From positions 1,426,001-1,490,000 of the forward strand of contig NZ_CP109796.1 in the NCBI RefSeq assembly GCF_038725785.1: DNA of 64,000 nucleotides. Direction: 5' to 3'. The notes beneath the pieces were generated by a model. It was not told where the DNA came from. It was given only the letters and a program-made list of their open reading frames with translations, and did no database searches. Positions 40,937-62,392 of the stretch are shown piece after piece. Source of the DNA: Termitidicoccus mucosus (lineage in GTDB: Bacteria; Verrucomicrobiota; Verrucomicrobiia; Opitutales; Opitutaceae). The position numbers were made by a program, and so were the translations under genes. Within the stretch, counting starts at the first letter, position 1; the number at the start of each line of letters is the position of its first letter.

Positions 40937-40969
40937 ACGCCCGGCCCGAAACGGCCGGGCGTTTTTTTT
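40937..40969 (+). terminator. Rho-independent terminator of rpsA
   Basis: 10-bp perfect stem ACGCCCGGCC/GGCCGGGCGT with loop CGAAAC, followed by eight T's, 31 bp after the rpsA stop. Confidence 0.95.
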
Positions 40970-52583: not shown

Positions 52584-54712
<2,129 letters not shown>

Positions 54713-54779
54713 GTTCTTATGTTTTTCGGGCCGCTGTCAATGGATGATGCCCGGTTTGTCCGCCCCGCCCGGCAAGGGC

Positions 54780-54809
54780 TTGACATCATCCCGGTCCGCT
54801 CGCTATGTT
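54780..54809 (+). promoter_or_regulatory. Sigma-70-type promoter of the nusA operon
   Basis: Consensus TTGACA (54780-54785), 18-nt spacer, TATGTT (54804-54809). Predicted leader of about 80 nt before nusA ATG 54896. Confidence 0.75.
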
Positions 54810-54842
54810 TTCCGACTCACTTCCAACGTTCACTTTCCACTG

Positions 54843-54869
54843 GGTGGGCCTCCGGCCCGCCTTTTTTTT
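54843..54869 (+). terminator. Leader terminator/attenuator of nusA
   Basis: Stem GGTGGGCC/GGCCCGCC (54843-54850 with 54854-54861, one G-T pair), 3-nt loop, then eight T's; located between the promoter and the nusA start, 26 nt before the ATG. Shape of an intrinsic terminator inside the leader. Confidence 0.75.
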
Positions 54870-54895
54870 CAACACACTCAAACACTCACGACTAT

Positions 54896-56119
54896 ATGAG
54901 CAGCGAAATTCTAGCCGTCCTTGAATACATGGAGAAGGAGAAAGGCATTGGCCGCGCCGACATGATTGCCGCGATTGTCAATGCCATCAAAACCGCTGCC
55001 CAAAAAGGGGTTAATTCCGGCCAGGAACTAAAGATCGAGATCAACCCGAAAAACGGTCACCTCAAGGCTTGGTCCCTGCTCAAGGTCGTCGATTCGGTTT
55101 CCAATCCCAAAACCGAGATTCACATCGAAAAAGCCCAGGCGCTCGCCCCGAACGCGCAGCTCGGCGAAATCCTCGAAAAAGAAATCGATCCCTCGATGCT
55201 CGGTCGCATCGCCGCCCAGACGGCCCGGCAGGCCGTCATGCAAAAGCTGCGCCAATTCGAAAAGGACCGGATTTACGACGATTTCAAGGACATGGTCGGC
55301 AACATCGTCACCGGCACCGTCCGCCGGAAAGAGCGCGGCGACATCTACATCGACTTGGGCAAGGCCGAGGCCGTCCTTTCCAACAAGGAGCAGGTGCCCG
55401 GCGAGGAATATCAGGCGGGCGACCGCATCCGCTGCCTGCTGCTCGCCATCGAGGCGACGCCGCGCGGCCCCGAAATCATCCTCAGCCGCGGCAGCCCGAA
55501 ATTCGTCCGCCGCCTGTTCGAACTCGAAGTCACCGAAATCGCCGACGGCACCGTGAAGATCGAGGCCTTCGCCCGCGAGGCCGGCTACCGCACCAAGATC
55601 GCCGTCACGTCCACCGACCCCAAGGTCGATCCCGTCGGCGCCTGCGTCGGCGCGCGCGGCGCCCGCGTGAAAACCATCGTGCGCGAGCTCAACGGCGAAA
55701 AAATCGACATCATCAATTATTTTCCCAATCCGCAGCAGATGATCATCGAGGCGCTCAAGCCCGCCATTCCGCGCGACATCCAGCTCGACGAGAAAAACCA
55801 CCGCATCGCGCTGAAGGTCGATCCCGAAAACCTCGCCATCGCCATCGGACGCAAAGGCCAGAACGCGCGCCTCACCTCGCGCCTCATCGGCTGGCGCCTC
55901 GACATCGAGGAATACAAGGTCGCCACCGCCGACCCGCGCGCCATCGCCATCGATTCCCTCACCAAGAACCTCGGCCTCGCCCGCGAAATCGCCGAACGCC
56001 TCGTCAACATCGGCATGAACTCTCCCGCCGTGCTCGAATCCGTCGACCTCGAAGACCTCATCGAAGCCGGCTTCTCCGAACAGGAAGCGCAGGACGTCCT
56101 GTCCCGCGTGAACAAATAA
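54896..56119 (+). CDS. nusA: Transcription termination/antitermination factor NusA
   Basis: RNA-polymerase-bound elongation factor, 407 residues. N-terminal polymerase-binding domain ([20 protein letters not shown]), S1 domain (about 140-210, [20 protein letters not shown]), KH1 and KH2 ([40 protein letters not shown]), and one C-terminal helix-hairpin-helix-like repeat ([20 protein letters not shown]). It lacks the second acidic repeat of E. coli. First gene of a translation/RNA operon, with an attenuator-like leader. Confidence 0.96.
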
Positions 56120-56160: not shown

Positions 56161-58797
56161 ATGAGCGTCCGCATCCACGAACTCGCCAAGAAGATTGGCA
56201 TGGACAACAAGGCATTGTTGGCCCTGCTCAAAGAACGCAATTTTGAAGTCAAGAGCGTCTCGAGCACAATCGACAACATCTCGGCCGAGGCCATCGAGCA
56301 GGAATTCGCGGAGCAAAACCCGTCCGCCGGGTCCGCGCCTCTCTCCGAGGACGCCGCATCCGAATCCCCGGCTGAAACCGCCCCGCCTGCCTCCGGGGTC
56401 TTCATCCCGGCCGGCGTCCGCGTGAAAAGCGTCGAGGACGTGGCCCGCGAAAAAGAAGAGGCCGCCCGCGCCGCCGCCGAGGCCAAAAAAGCCGCGCAGG
56501 CCGTCGCCGCTCCGATGCCGCCGCCGCCCGTGCCGCGCCCTGTCCCGGCGCCCCTTCCCCCGCGCCCTGTTTCCGCACCTCCACCCGCGCCATCCATCGT
56601 GAGCGCACCCAAATCCGCACCTTCCGCACCGCCTCCGGTGCCGGTCCCGTCTGTGGTTTCCGCACCGAAACCACCCCCGCCTGCGCCCTCCGCGCCTTTG
56701 CCGGCCGCCGCGCGCTCGTTCATTCCTCCCGTCCGCACCGCCGCCGAGGCCGCTGCTGCGGCCGCCGCGCCCAAGACGCCGCCCGTCGCGCCCGCGCCGC
56801 GTCCCGTCTCCGCGCCGCCCCCGCCGGTTCAGCGCCCGGTCTCGGCACCTCCCGCGCCGGTCAACCGGCCATCCGCGCCTCCACCGCCCCCGATGGCCGG
56901 GGCGCCGAAGCCGCCGCCCGCCATCGTCTCCGCGCCCGGCGCGACGCCCGCGATTCCTTCCGCCGCGCCTTTCTCCGTCGCGAGCGCGCCCGCCGCCGAA
57001 GGCGAGGTGAAGATGATCAGCATGAAGCCGCCCATCATCGTGCGCGACTTCGCGCCCGCGCTTGGGCTGAAGCCCTTCAAGCTCATCTCCGAACTCATGG
57101 CGATGGGCGTTTTCGCCTCGATGAACCAGACCGTCGAGGAAACCGTGGCGGTCAAGGTCGCGGAAAAATTCGGCTTCCTGCTCGAAATCAAGCACCGCGG
57201 CGACGCCGCCGCGCAGCAGGCCAAACTCGCCGAAAAAGCGAAAAAGAAAAAAGACCCGAACGTGGACGACCCGAAGGACCTCGTCCCGCGTCCGCCCGTC
57301 GTGTGCATCCTGGGGCACGTTGACCACGGCAAGACCTCGCTCCTCGACGCCATCCGCAAGGCCAACGTCGTCGCCGGCGAATTCGGCGGCATCACCCAGC
57401 ACATCGGCGCGTATCAGGTCACCCGCGGCGAACGCAAGATCACCTTCCTCGACACCCCCGGCCACGCCGCCTTCAACAAAATGCGCGAGCGCGGCGCCTC
57501 CGTCACCGACATCGCCGTGCTCGTCATCGCCGCCGACGACGGCTTCATGCCGCAGACCGACGAGGCCCTCCAGCACGTGCAGAACGCCAAGGTCGCGCTC
57601 ATCGTCGCCATCAACAAAATCGACGCGAAGGGCGCCAACATCGACCAGATCAAGGGCCAGATGCAGCAGCGCGGCATCGCCTCCGAGGATTGGGGCGGCG
57701 AGACCATCACCGTGCCCGTTTCCGCGATCAAGGGCGACGGCATCGACGACCTGCTCGAAATGCTCGCGCTCCAGGCCGACGTGCTCGAACTCAAGGCCAA
57801 CCCGAAGGCACCCGCCAGCGGCATCATCATCGAATCCCAAATCGACACCGGCCGCGGCCCGCTCGCCACCGTCATCGTCCAGCGCGGCACGCTTCGCATC
57901 GGCGACGCCATCGTGTGCGGCCAGCACTGGGCCAAGGTCCGCGCCATGTTTGACGACCAGGGCAACAATGTGAAGGAGGCCCCGCCCTCCACGCCCGTCC
58001 GCGTCATCGGCTGGTCGGGCGCGCCCGACAGCGGTGCGGAATTCAAATCGTCCAAAAACGCCCGCGAGGCCGAGAACATCGCCGAGGAAGAGGAGGACCG
58101 CCTGCGCAAGCTCGCCGCCGCCCAGGCCGCCGCGCCCAAGGAATCGTCCATCGAAAGCCTTTTCGCCAACATCGCCGCCACGCAGCAAAAGACGCTCAAG
58201 GTCATCATCAAGACCGACGTCTTCGGTTCCGCCGAGGCCGTGCGCCACGTGCTGGAAAGCATCAAGAGCACGAAGGTCACGCTCGAAATCGTCTCCACCG
58301 ACGTCGGACTCATCGGCAAAAACGACGTCCTCATGGCCGGCACCGGCGGCGCGGTCATCCTCGGCTTCAACACCAAGCTCGAAAACGGCGTCACCCCGCT
58401 CGCCAAGCACCACGGCGTCCGCATCGAGACCTTCAACATCATCTACGAACTCGGCGACAAGGTCCGCGAAATGATGGCCGACCTGCTCGACCCCGAGTTG
58501 AAGGAAGTGAAACTCGGCGCCGCCGAGGTGCGCGCCACCTTCCCGCTCGCGAAAGGCTTTGTGGCCGGCTGCCTCGTCACCGAAGGCAAGATCACCCGCA
58601 ACGCCCAGTCGCGCCTGCGCCGCGGCAAGACCGTCGTCACCGAAGGCAAGGTCAACACGCTCAAACGCTTCAAGGACGACGCCAACGAAGTCCGCGCCGG
58701 CCTCGAGTGCGGCATCAAGCTCGACGACTTCAACGGCTACGAAATCGGCGACATCATCGAGTGCTACGAAATCCAGAAAGTCAGGGCCGCGCTCTGA
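56161..58797 (+). CDS. infB: Translation initiation factor IF-2
   Basis: GTPase that places initiator tRNA, 878 residues. N-terminal IF2_N (SVRIHELAKKIGMDNKALLA), Pro/Ala/Ser-rich linker about 60-280, second IF2_N-like part, G domain with G1 GHVDHGKT (from residue 385), G3 DTPGHAAF, G4 NKID, then domains II-IV. Its TGA stop lies inside the left arm of a palindrome. Follows nusA by 41 bp. Confidence 0.97.
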   Translation: MSVRIHELAKKIGMDNKALLALLKERNFEVKSVSSTIDNISAEAIEQEFAEQNPSAGSAPLSEDAASESPAETAPPASGVFIPAGVRVKSVEDVAREKEEAARAAAEAKKAAQAVAAPMPPPPVPRPVPAPLPPRPVSAPPPAPSIVSAPKSAPSAPPPVPVPSVVSAPKPPPPAPSAPLPAAARSFIPPVRTAAEAAAAAAAPKTPPVAPAPRPVSAPPPPVQRPVSAPPAPVNRPSAPPPPPMAGAPKPPPAIVSAPGATPAIPSAAPFSVASAPAAEGEVKMISMKPPIIVRDFAPALGLKPFKLISELMAMGVFASMNQTVEETVAVKVAEKFGFLLEIKHRGDAAAQQAKLAEKAKKKKDPNVDDPKDLVPRPPVVCILGHVDHGKTSLLDAIRKANVVAGEFGGITQHIGAYQVTRGERKITFLDTPGHAAFNKMRERGASVTDIAVLVIAADDGFMPQTDEALQHVQNAKVALIVAINKIDAKGANIDQIKGQMQQRGIASEDWGGETITVPVSAIKGDGIDDLLEMLALQADVLELKANPKAPASGIIIESQIDTGRGPLATVIVQRGTLRIGDAIVCGQHWAKVRAMFDDQGNNVKEAPPSTPVRVIGWSGAPDSGAEFKSSKNAREAENIAEEEEDRLRKLAAAQAAAPKESSIESLFANIAATQQKTLKVIIKTDVFGSAEAVRHVLESIKSTKVTLEIVSTDVGLIGKNDVLMAGTGGAVILGFNTKLENGVTPLAKHHGVRIETFNIIYELGDKVREMMADLLDPELKEVKLGAAEVRATFPLAKGFVAGCLVTEGKITRNAQSRLRRGKTVVTEGKVNTLKRFKDDANEVRAGLECGIKLDDFNGYEIGDIIECYEIQKVRAAL

Positions 58798-58891: not shown

Positions 58892-59275
58892 ATGTCCAAC
58901 CGCACCCTCCGCGTCAACGAACTCATCCAGCGCGAGCTGAGTGACATCCTCCGCAAGCGTTATCAGGCCGAGGCGGTCGCCATCACCATCAGCGCGGTCG
59001 ATATCGCCCCCGACCTCCGCGATGGCCGCGTGCACGTGGCGGTCTTTGGCGACGCCGATTTCGCGCAGCAAAAACTCCGCTGGCTCCGTGCCATCGCCCG
59101 CGAACTCACGCAGGAATTGGGCCGCCGCATCGTGCTCAAATACATGCCCAAGCTCACCTACACGCTCGACACCAGCACCGCCCGCGGCAACCGCGTCCTC
59201 GGCATCCTCGACGAGATCGACGCCAAGCAGGGTCCGCTCCCTCCGTCCGACGACGATGCCGCGCCATCTCCGTAG
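58892..59275 (+). CDS. rbfA: Ribosome-binding factor A
   Basis: 30S maturation and cold-adaptation factor, 127 residues with the KH-like fold: RTLRVNELIQRELSDILRKR, VTISAVDIAPDLRDGRVHVA-like strand, and the FKYMPKLTY...D region. Standard position after infB. Confidence 0.94.
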   Translation: MSNRTLRVNELIQRELSDILRKRYQAEAVAITISAVDIAPDLRDGRVHVAVFGDADFAQQKLRWLRAIARELTQELGRRIVLKYMPKLTYTLDTSTARGNRVLGILDEIDAKQGPLPPSDDDAAPSP

Positions 59276-59482: not shown

Positions 59483-59497
59483 CCATAATTGAAAACA

Positions 59498-60499
59498 ATG
59501 GAAAAACTCTTTCCCGATCTCTCCTCCCGTTTCGCCCGGCTTCTCGCCGACATCGCCGGACAACGCATCGCCGTGGTCGGCCACGCCCGCCCGGACGGCG
59601 ATTGCATCGGCTCGCAAATCGCCCTGGCCCGCGTCCTCCGCGCGCGCGGCCACGAAGTCGTCTGCGTCAACGGCGACCTCGTGCCCCGCCGCCTCCGATA
59701 CCTCGTCGGAGACATGCCCTTTTATCTCACCGACGACACGCCCGCGGGCGACTGGGCCGCGATCTACGTTGACTGCGCCGACCATGCCCGCGGCGGCGAG
59801 AAGGCCCGCAAACGCTTCCCGGCCCCGGTCGCCGTCATCGATCATCACCTGTCCAACTCCGGCTTCGCGCCCTGCAACATCATCGATTCGACCTCCGCCG
59901 CCGCGTGCGAAATCCTCGCCGGACTCTTTCTCGACAACGCCATCGACATCGACCCCGGCGCCGCGCGAGCCCTCTACGCCGGCATCGTCACCGACACCGG
60001 CATGTTCCGCTTCAACTCCACCACCCGCCGCACCTTCATGCTCGCCGCCGAGCTTGTCACGCGCGGCGCCAACCCCAGCGAGGCCGGCTACGAAATCTAC
60101 GAGCGCGAGTCCCCCGCCAAGCTCCGGCTCCTCCAGCGCTTCCTCGGCTCCCTCCGCTACGAATGCGGCGGACGCGCCTGCGTCGGCCTGCTGCCCGACG
60201 GCGTCTTCGAGCAGACTGGCGCCGAGATCGAGGACACCGAGGGGCTCGTGGACTATGCCCGTTGTATCGACGGAGTGGATATCGGTGTGCTCATCGAGGA
60301 ACGCGCGGGCGCGATCAAGGCGAGCTTCCGCGCAAAAAATCCCGTCTTCCGCGTCGACCAGATCGCGGCGCAATTCGGCGGCGGCGGGCACGCCTGCGCC
60401 GCCGGCCTCAACTTGCAAGGCGGGACGCTCGCCGACTTCCGTCCCCGGCTCGTCGCCGCCCTCGCCGCCCAATTCGCCGCGATGGAAATCAAAAATTAA
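59498..60499 (+). CDS. nrnA: DHH-family nanoRNase / pAp phosphatase
   Basis: Degrades 2-5-nt RNAs and pAp. 333 residues: DHH domain with HARPDGDCIGSQIALARVL, YVDCADHAR and VIDHHLSNSGF (metal ligands), DHHA1 domain with FRVDQIAAQFGGGGHACAAG. The first motif is HARPDGD, a common variant. In place between rbfA and truB as in many bacteria. ATG 59498; a TTG 9 nt earlier is possible. Confidence 0.94.
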   Translation: MEKLFPDLSSRFARLLADIAGQRIAVVGHARPDGDCIGSQIALARVLRARGHEVVCVNGDLVPRRLRYLVGDMPFYLTDDTPAGDWAAIYVDCADHARGGEKARKRFPAPVAVIDHHLSNSGFAPCNIIDSTSAAACEILAGLFLDNAIDIDPGAARALYAGIVTDTGMFRFNSTTRRTFMLAAELVTRGANPSEAGYEIYERESPAKLRLLQRFLGSLRYECGGRACVGLLPDGVFEQTGAEIEDTEGLVDYARCIDGVDIGVLIEERAGAIKASFRAKNPVFRVDQIAAQFGGGGHACAAGLNLQGGTLADFRPRLVAALAAQFAAMEIKN

Positions 60500-60571: not shown

Positions 60572-61297
60572 ATGCTCCTCCCGCCCAAAGAAATCGAGGG
60601 TGTCCTCCTCATCGACAAACCCACCGACCACACCTCGCACGACGTCATCGCCCGCCTGCGCGGCATCCTGAAAATGAAGCGCGTCGGCCACGCCGGCACG
60701 CTCGATCCCATGGCCACCGGCGTGCTTGTTGTCCTCGTCGGCAAGGCGACCCGCGCCTCGCAATACCTGATGAGCCTCGACAAGGAATACACCGGCACCG
60801 TCACCCTCGGCAAGGTCACCAACACCCAGGACGCCGAGGGCGAAATGCTCGAGACGCGTCCCGTCCCGCCGCTCACCGAGGCGCAAGTCCTCGCCGCGAT
60901 GAAGACCTTCGTCGGCGACCAATACCAGATGCCGCCCATGTTTTCCGCCATCAAGATCGACGGCGTGCCGCTCTACAAAAGCGCGCGCAAGGGCGAGGAT
61001 ATCGAACGGGAGCCGCGCTTCATCCGCATCTCGAAATTCGAACTCGAACGCTTCGCCTCCCCCGAGATCGACTTCGTGCTCCGTTGCAGCAAAGGCACCT
61101 ATGTGCGCACCGTCGCGCACGACCTCGGCCAGAAAATCGGCTGCGGCGCGCACCTTTCCTCCCTGCGCCGCACCGCGACCGGCAGGTTCACCATCGACCA
61201 GTGCGTGACCATCGAGCAACTTCAGGCCATGTCGCCGCCCGATATCGAAAAACGCCTCATCCCCGTCCGCGACGCCGTCCCATCCGTGGCCCTGTGA
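60572..61297 (+). CDS. truB: tRNA pseudouridine(55) synthase
   Basis: Modifies U55 of tRNA. 241 residues. [40 protein letters not shown] with the catalytic Asp45, [10 protein letters not shown], and [20 protein letters not shown]. It lacks the C-terminal PUA domain of E. coli TruB, as in many shorter homologues. Confidence 0.96.
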
Positions 61298-61438: not shown

Positions 61439-62392
61439 ATGGCCACGACCCAATTTCAAGATCTCGCCGAAGCCAGGCTGCCAGCCCGCCCGCTTCACCT
61501 CGCCATCGGCATGTTTGACGGCGTGCATCTCGGACACCGCGCCGTCATCGACGCCGCCATCCAGTCCGCGCGGCGCAGCGGCGGACTGGCCGGCGTGCTC
61601 ACCTTCTGGCCGCACCCCAGCGTTCTCGTCCGCCCCGATTCCCCTGTCCCGCTGGTCAACGATCCCGGCATAAAGGCCCGCCTCCTCGCCGAGGCCGGCA
61701 TGGACTTCATCATCACGCAACGCTTCACCCCCGGGTTCGCCGCCATCGAGGCCGCGGATTTTCTCCCGTTCCTCCAGAAAAACCTGCCCGCGCTCTCCGC
61801 CATTTACGTCGGGGAAAACTGGCGCTACGGGCATGGCCGCGGCGGCGACATTCACTCCTTGGTCGAAGACGCGCGCGCGCGCGGCCTCGCGGTCGTCAGC
61901 TCGCAGCGCATCAATCTCAACGGGGAGCCCATCAGCAGCACGCGCATCCGCGCCTGTCTCGCCGAAGGCCGCCTCGACGAGGCCAACGCGCTTCTCGGCT
62001 ACAGCTATTTCGCCGAGGGCATCGTCGCCTCGGGCAAGGCGCTCGGCCGTGCCATCGGGTTTCCCACGCTCAACATTTCCTGGGATCCCGGCTTGCGGCC
62101 CTGTTTCGGTGTTTACGCCGTGCAAGTCACCGGGCCGAAATCGGCGGGACGTTACCCCGGCGTCGCCAACTACGGCCTGCGTCCGACCGTGGAGCAAAGC
62201 ACCGAGCCCAAGCTCGAAGTGCATCTTTTCGGCCCCTGCCCCTTCGCCGGCGGCGACAAAATCCAGGTGGACTGGCTTCGCTTCATCCGCCCGGAGATGA
62301 AATTCTCCAGCGTCGAGGAACTCACCGCCCGCATCGCCGAGGATCGCGCCCAGGCCGAGGCGTTTTTCAAAACCGGGACCACCGCGAAATAA
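61439..62392 (+). CDS. ribF: Bifunctional riboflavin kinase / FAD synthetase
   Basis: Makes FMN and FAD from riboflavin. 317 residues: nucleotidyltransferase half (LAIGMFDGVHLGHRAVIDAA, VGENWRYGHGRGGDI, INLNGEPISSTRIRACLAEG) and riboflavin kinase half (VASGKALGRAIGFPTLNI, YPGVANYGLRPTVEQ). Last gene of the nusA cluster on this strand. Confidence 0.97.
   Translation: MATTQFQDLAEARLPARPLHLAIGMFDGVHLGHRAVIDAAIQSARRSGGLAGVLTFWPHPSVLVRPDSPVPLVNDPGIKARLLAEAGMDFIITQRFTPGFAAIEAADFLPFLQKNLPALSAIYVGENWRYGHGRGGDIHSLVEDARARGLAVVSSQRINLNGEPISSTRIRACLAEGRLDEANALLGYSYFAEGIVASGKALGRAIGFPTLNISWDPGLRPCFGVYAVQVTGPKSAGRYPGVANYGLRPTVEQSTEPKLEVHLFGPCPFAGGDKIQVDWLRFIRPEMKFSSVEELTARIAEDRAQAEAFFKTGTTAK

Follow-up and report, generated by a model that had tools for sequence, protein, structure and literature searches.

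Autoregulation of B. subtilis NusA by attenuation was reportedly shown by experiment by Mondal et al. in 2016. According to a review, NusA of B. subtilis controls its own expression by stimulating intrinsic termination in the 5′ leader (PMC12288461). A more widespread element is the rimP-leader of Naville and Gautheret 2010 (PMC2965389), a leader terminator of the rimP-nusA-infB operon with a GGGc...gCCC stem and a U stretch. It is called the most ubiquitous transcription attenuator there; no antiterminator is visible in its general form, RimP or NusA are considered as possible feedback proteins, and NusA is named as the best candidate (PMC2965389). In S. agalactiae, transcription of rimP-nusA-infB was described to stop at an intrinsic terminator 31 nt downstream of the start, and NusA feedback was proposed (PMC4448216); feedback by NusA on the rimP-nusA leader was also proposed for E. 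coli (PMC2965389, PMC4448216). Names beginning with Verrucomicrobi or Opitut, as well as Akkermansia, are absent from the main text of PMC2965389, and among the matches listed in a search of the open-access literature no description of a nusA leader attenuator was found for Verrucomicrobiota.

The window studied here, i.e. the whole analyzed stretch of 64,000 nt from Termitidicoccus mucosus (Opitutaceae), contains a candidate leader of this kind in front of nusA. A first-pass annotation had placed a near-consensus promoter and, 26 nt before the nusA start, a hairpin with eight T's at the head of a nusA-infB-rbfA-nrnA-truB-ribF operon, and had read them as an attenuator. The features are as follows.

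54780-54809, plus strand: sigma-70-type promoter, with the −35 element TTGACA at 54780-54785 and the −10 element TATGTT at 54804-54809
about 54816, plus strand: predicted transcription start, placed from the promoter position
54831-54836, plus strand: family-conserved CACTTT element directly preceding the hairpin
54842-54862, plus strand: terminator hairpin GGGTGGGCC-TCC-GGCCCGCCT, holding the GGGc...gCCC core of the rimP-leader
54862-54869, plus strand: run of eight T (U tract), the first T being also the last base of the stem
54896-56119, plus strand: nusA, 407 aa, with NusA_N, S1 and KH domains (Pfam)
56161-58797, plus strand: infB (Pfam)
58892-59275, plus strand: rbfA (Pfam)
59489-60499, plus strand: gene of an nrnA-like DHH/DHHA1 protein (Pfam)
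60572-61297, plus strand: truB (Pfam)
61439-62392, plus strand: ribF (Pfam)

The Pfam assignments agree with the annotated operon in content and order, the fourth gene encoding the nrnA-like DHH protein. In the window, nusA is preceded by the divergent thiC on the minus strand (52584-54599), which has a TPP riboswitch in front of it (54602-54715, minus strand; RF00059, 51.0 bits, E 3.6e-9); a default Rfam scan misses this riboswitch because its score lies just below the gathering score of 54.3.

For comparison within the Opitutaceae, 61 family genomes were searched for NusA. The protein was matched in 57 of them and the DNA before nusA was read in 56, the genome left out (G039) having a nusA fragment without the gene start on its contig; two rows of the resulting 56-row alignment are identical. 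The nusA ATG at 54896 is aligned across all 56 leaders. An in-frame ATG at 54719 was rejected as the start of nusA because of this alignment (56/56) and because leader length varies by indels. No evident Shine-Dalgarno sequence was seen before nusA at 54870-54895; this segment is rich in A and C, both in the window and in those family leaders that were read.

The description of the promoter as near-consensus was accurate, since TTGACA-18-TATGTT, with its 18-nt spacer, matches 10 of 12 consensus positions; the promoter scan returned one site, compared with 0.3 expected from shuffles. CTTGAC occupies the aligned −35 columns (39-44) in 55 of the 56 family leaders, and only L018 deviates, its TTGACA lying a few bases further on. 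Conservation extends to the −10 columns, where T71 is found in 51, A72 in 40, T75 in 46 and T76 in 38 of the 56 leaders. From the predicted start, the 5′ UTR would comprise 80 nt, with about 25-26 nt up to the hairpin and about 54 nt up to the end of the T run.

The hairpin and its eight T's were likewise found where they had been annotated: arms at 54842-54850 and 54854-54862 form nine pairs around the loop TCC, and 26 nt lie between the T run and the ATG. The predicted leader RNA (54816-54895) folds with −17.2 kcal/mol (z −3.27), and none of 200 shuffled sequences was as stable. Taken alone, a simple terminator scan was unremarkable (three terminator-like sites in 1 kb against 1.8 expected), and in its U tract and stability the hairpin ranks near the top among the loosely defined terminators of the window, one at 40962 being stronger. 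By its predicted folding energy of −17.2 kcal/mol and its uninterrupted U8, the nusA leader terminator looks strong. The site at 40962 (plus strand) has a strong hairpin of −24.4 kcal/mol, which is also followed by eight T.

Conservation of the hairpin in relatives had been suggested as a check, and a hairpin with a T run is present in all 56 family leaders, as recognized by an expression written after the first 30 had been seen. The run holds 7-11 T and ends 14-41 nt before the ATG (n = 56). A general terminator rule was matched by 58 of 58 family leaders, where 11.9 would be expected from shuffles, and a narrower motif rule, written after sequences had been seen, by 56 of 58 (0.30 expected). 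The stem has the form GTGGG...CCC[AG]C in 52/58 leaders and reads GTGGGCC...GGCCCGC in the window. Similar results came from named Opitutaceae loci, taken as the best 80 of 382 relatives and overlapping with the 61-genome set: after two of the 80 had been dropped as too short, a terminator was found before nusA in 78 of 78 loci with at least 80 nt of upstream sequence, the nearest belonging to Opitutaceae bacteria, Ereboglobus, Cephaloticoccus and others. Three of the named loci did not contain the strict motif.

Both the sequence and the pairing of the stem are maintained. The core stem bases G123, G125-G127, C138, G140 and C141 do not vary among the 56 rows, in contrast to the flanking columns; 97.1% of the stem cells are paired. 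Compensatory change altered 17 cells on both sides as compared to 4.6 in shuffles, a value reached by none of 500 shuffles. The number of pairs with compensatory change, three, was reached by 44 of 500 shuffles and is less telling than the cell count. One stem pair is U.G in 54 of 55 family rows. At the sequence level, the conservation rules out a chance origin of the nusA leader hairpin.

The stem is specific for nusA as well. GTGGGCC-N3-GGCCCGC occurs once in the 7.9 Mb genome of the organism itself, and a strict pattern of hairpin and T run was matched in 44 of the 61 family genomes, once in each, in all 44 cases 17-44 nt before nusA; a reversed control pattern had no match in the 61 genomes. 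The sequence is thus not among the terminators in common use in these genomes. The motif rule also matches the antisense strand of some leaders (14/58 in the family, 2/9 in the order, 3/14 in the class and 7/52 in the phylum); a hairpin that is nearly symmetric and has A's in front of it can look like a terminator from either strand.

Compared with the rimP-leader as described in PMC2965389, the Opitutaceae leader shares the intrinsic terminator in the 5′ UTR of a nusA-infB operon, the GGGc...gCCC core with a U tract and the leader-specific stem motif, to which the strict matches before nusA correspond. The distance to the first gene, 4-130 nt in that article, is 26 nt in the window and 14-41 nt in the family. 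As in the general type of that article, no antiterminator is supported here, although a nascent hairpin of −8.0 kcal/mol exists in the window. Unlike the rimP-leader described there, the family stem has the nearly invariant U.G pair and is preceded by the CACTTT element. A further difference is that nusA is the first gene and rimP is not found; in our view the operons then differ in their genes and not in the element, the motif being defined by stem and operon in the description given in PMC2965389. The S. agalactiae leader (PMC4448216) is similar in being short and ending in an intrinsic terminator, but differs in that RNA-seq evidence and a rimP gene are reported there. In E. coli K-12 (metY-rimP-nusA-infB), the same GGGC...GCCC hairpin core and T7 stand directly before rimP; unlike the leader in the window, this one lies behind a tRNA gene and contains additional terminators and promoters. 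The Rfam family RF01770 (rimP) is named for the same operon, but its 102-position model does not match the leaders analyzed here: in 0 of 19 genomes did a match exceed the 47-bit cut-off, none of the matches listed was at nusA, and at 54500-55000 of the window there was no match at E ≤ 1.

RimP itself was not detected in the relatives. None of 29 relatives and none of 144 phylum genomes gave a match to the domain RimP_N (PF02576), nor did any of the 144 to the C-terminal domain (PF17384); the searches for both domains were positive in 10 of 14 control genomes and could miss a very divergent RimP. The leader is kept before nusA where RimP is undetected, which argues against an obligatory role of RimP in its regulation here and leaves NusA as the best candidate inside the operon. 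What is new is the context, a leader that persists where no RimP is detected, while the element itself is of a known kind. With the leader retained in such a phylum, RimP drops out as an obligatory partner, and NusA is favoured.

A conserved promoter followed by a terminator and nusA, with a stem found before nusA only, supports the attenuator reading of the first-pass annotation, which correctly identified the feature and probably also its use. We consider it likely that the leader is an attenuator of the rimP-leader kind for the nusA operon, in which NusA-stimulated termination lowers NusA synthesis. RNA polymerase would start near 54816 and meet the intrinsic terminator after about 50 nt, so that nusA-infB-rbfA-nrnA-truB-ribF would be expressed only by polymerases reading through. 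If the terminator works in the cell in this way and NusA sets the readthrough by stimulating termination in the leader, a high NusA level would lower its own synthesis. Whereas autoregulation of the B. subtilis nusA leader reportedly rests on experiment, the corresponding proposal here is drawn from sequence and precedent, and a regulatory role of NusA is the best explanation by analogy with B. subtilis, S. agalactiae, E. coli and the rimP-leader. A minimal leader of about 54 nt, with no aptamer and with nusA directly downstream, offers a test case for an essential termination factor setting its own level.

The predicted strength of the terminator bears on how much NusA could contribute. B. 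subtilis terminators that need NusA are described as tending to have a suboptimal hairpin or U tract, and NusA may change readthrough little here because the terminator is strong in comparison. The leader could then be a real attenuator with a main input other than the NusA level, such as NusG, which is described to stimulate intrinsic termination in B. subtilis too, a Nus-type complex acting via CACUUU, growth rate or start-site effects. The strong terminator with its uninterrupted U tract and the additional CACTTT element, exact in 40 of the 56 family leaders, would fit such an input. We nevertheless regard this as rather unlikely, since the approximately 25 nt from predicted start to hairpin leave no aptamer-sized RNA and NusA has precedents at leaders of the rimP-leader type, as described in the articles cited above. 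A search for rRNA in the organism's own genome, made for a boxA comparison with CACTTT, returned no 16S or 5S match. For the Opitutaceae, we speculate that the leader may do more than terminate: the nearly invariant, U.G-bearing stem and CACUUU may form a recognition site for NusA (through its S1 and KH domains) or for a Nus-type complex, so that one short RNA would be read for both termination and readthrough without RimP. This idea is tentative and, on balance, doubtful. If it is true, the RimP-less phylum would be a natural experiment indicating that a very old leader serves NusA alone.

CACTTT is also the reverse complement of the consensus AAAGTG in the 5′ arm of the terminator, and pairing between the two could give an antiterminator in competition with the terminator. 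In the window, nascent leader RNA extending to 54850-54856 folds with −8.0 kcal/mol via CACTTT pairing before the terminator (−17.2 kcal/mol) wins, and CACTTT and the arm are paired in 93.9% of family cells. This proportion does not exceed the 94.4% obtained in shuffles, and the covariation score was reached by 435 of 500 shuffles. Pairing of the upstream sequence with the arm reached p ≤ 0.05 in only 5/58 family, 0/9 order, 1/13 class and 3/42 phylum leaders, with p 0.65 for the window itself. With neither covariation nor shuffle comparison in its favour, a CACTTT antiterminator is not supported, and a structural switch of this type appears very unlikely.

It is still less probable that the product of termination, an RNA of about 54 nt, works elsewhere as a small RNA, with nusA attenuation as a by-product. 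The stem is conserved in sequence and not just in pairing, and two weak Rfam sRNA matches (E 0.011 and 0.24) were obtained, which lie far below the cut-off and cover the terminator only; their identities, Bp1_781 and SorX, were rejected as explained by the terminator alone. Against such a role, there is little conserved unpaired RNA besides CACTTT, and the element always adjoins nusA. Intrinsic terminators are often found between genes, but that the hairpin merely insulates nusA from upstream transcription or marks where a transcript from upstream ends is highly improbable, given that it lies downstream of a conserved promoter and must act on nusA's own transcript, and that thiC, which precedes nusA in the window, is transcribed divergently from the other strand, so the hairpin is not its 3′ terminator.

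The nusA leader terminator extends beyond the family. The NusA search of the phylum covered 144 genomes, 15 of them from the family. NusA was matched in 125 of the 129 non-family genomes, and 75 of their leaders, hand-picked to cover families, were read. The general terminator rule was matched by 9 of 9 leaders from the order, 13 of 14 from the class and 44 of 52 from the rest of the phylum (expected: 1.5, 1.6 and 6.5), some of the class and phylum hits, 90-209 nt upstream and without the motif, being probably due to chance. The motif rule was matched by 6/9, 11/14 and 37/52 leaders, respectively, with 0.10, 0.05 and 0.20 expected. Altogether, the motif was present before nusA in 54 of the 75 sampled leaders outside the family and absent in 21, an absence that, like the missing match to the Rfam rimP model, counts against the attenuator reading. 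Four of the 11 class matches (L076, L079, L081 and L135) have a GTGGAAAC...GTTTCCAC stem that replaces the GTGGG...CCCAC core, with the position before nusA kept, and three of the 21 motif-less leaders (L062-L064) have a related GCGGGC/GCCTGC stem.
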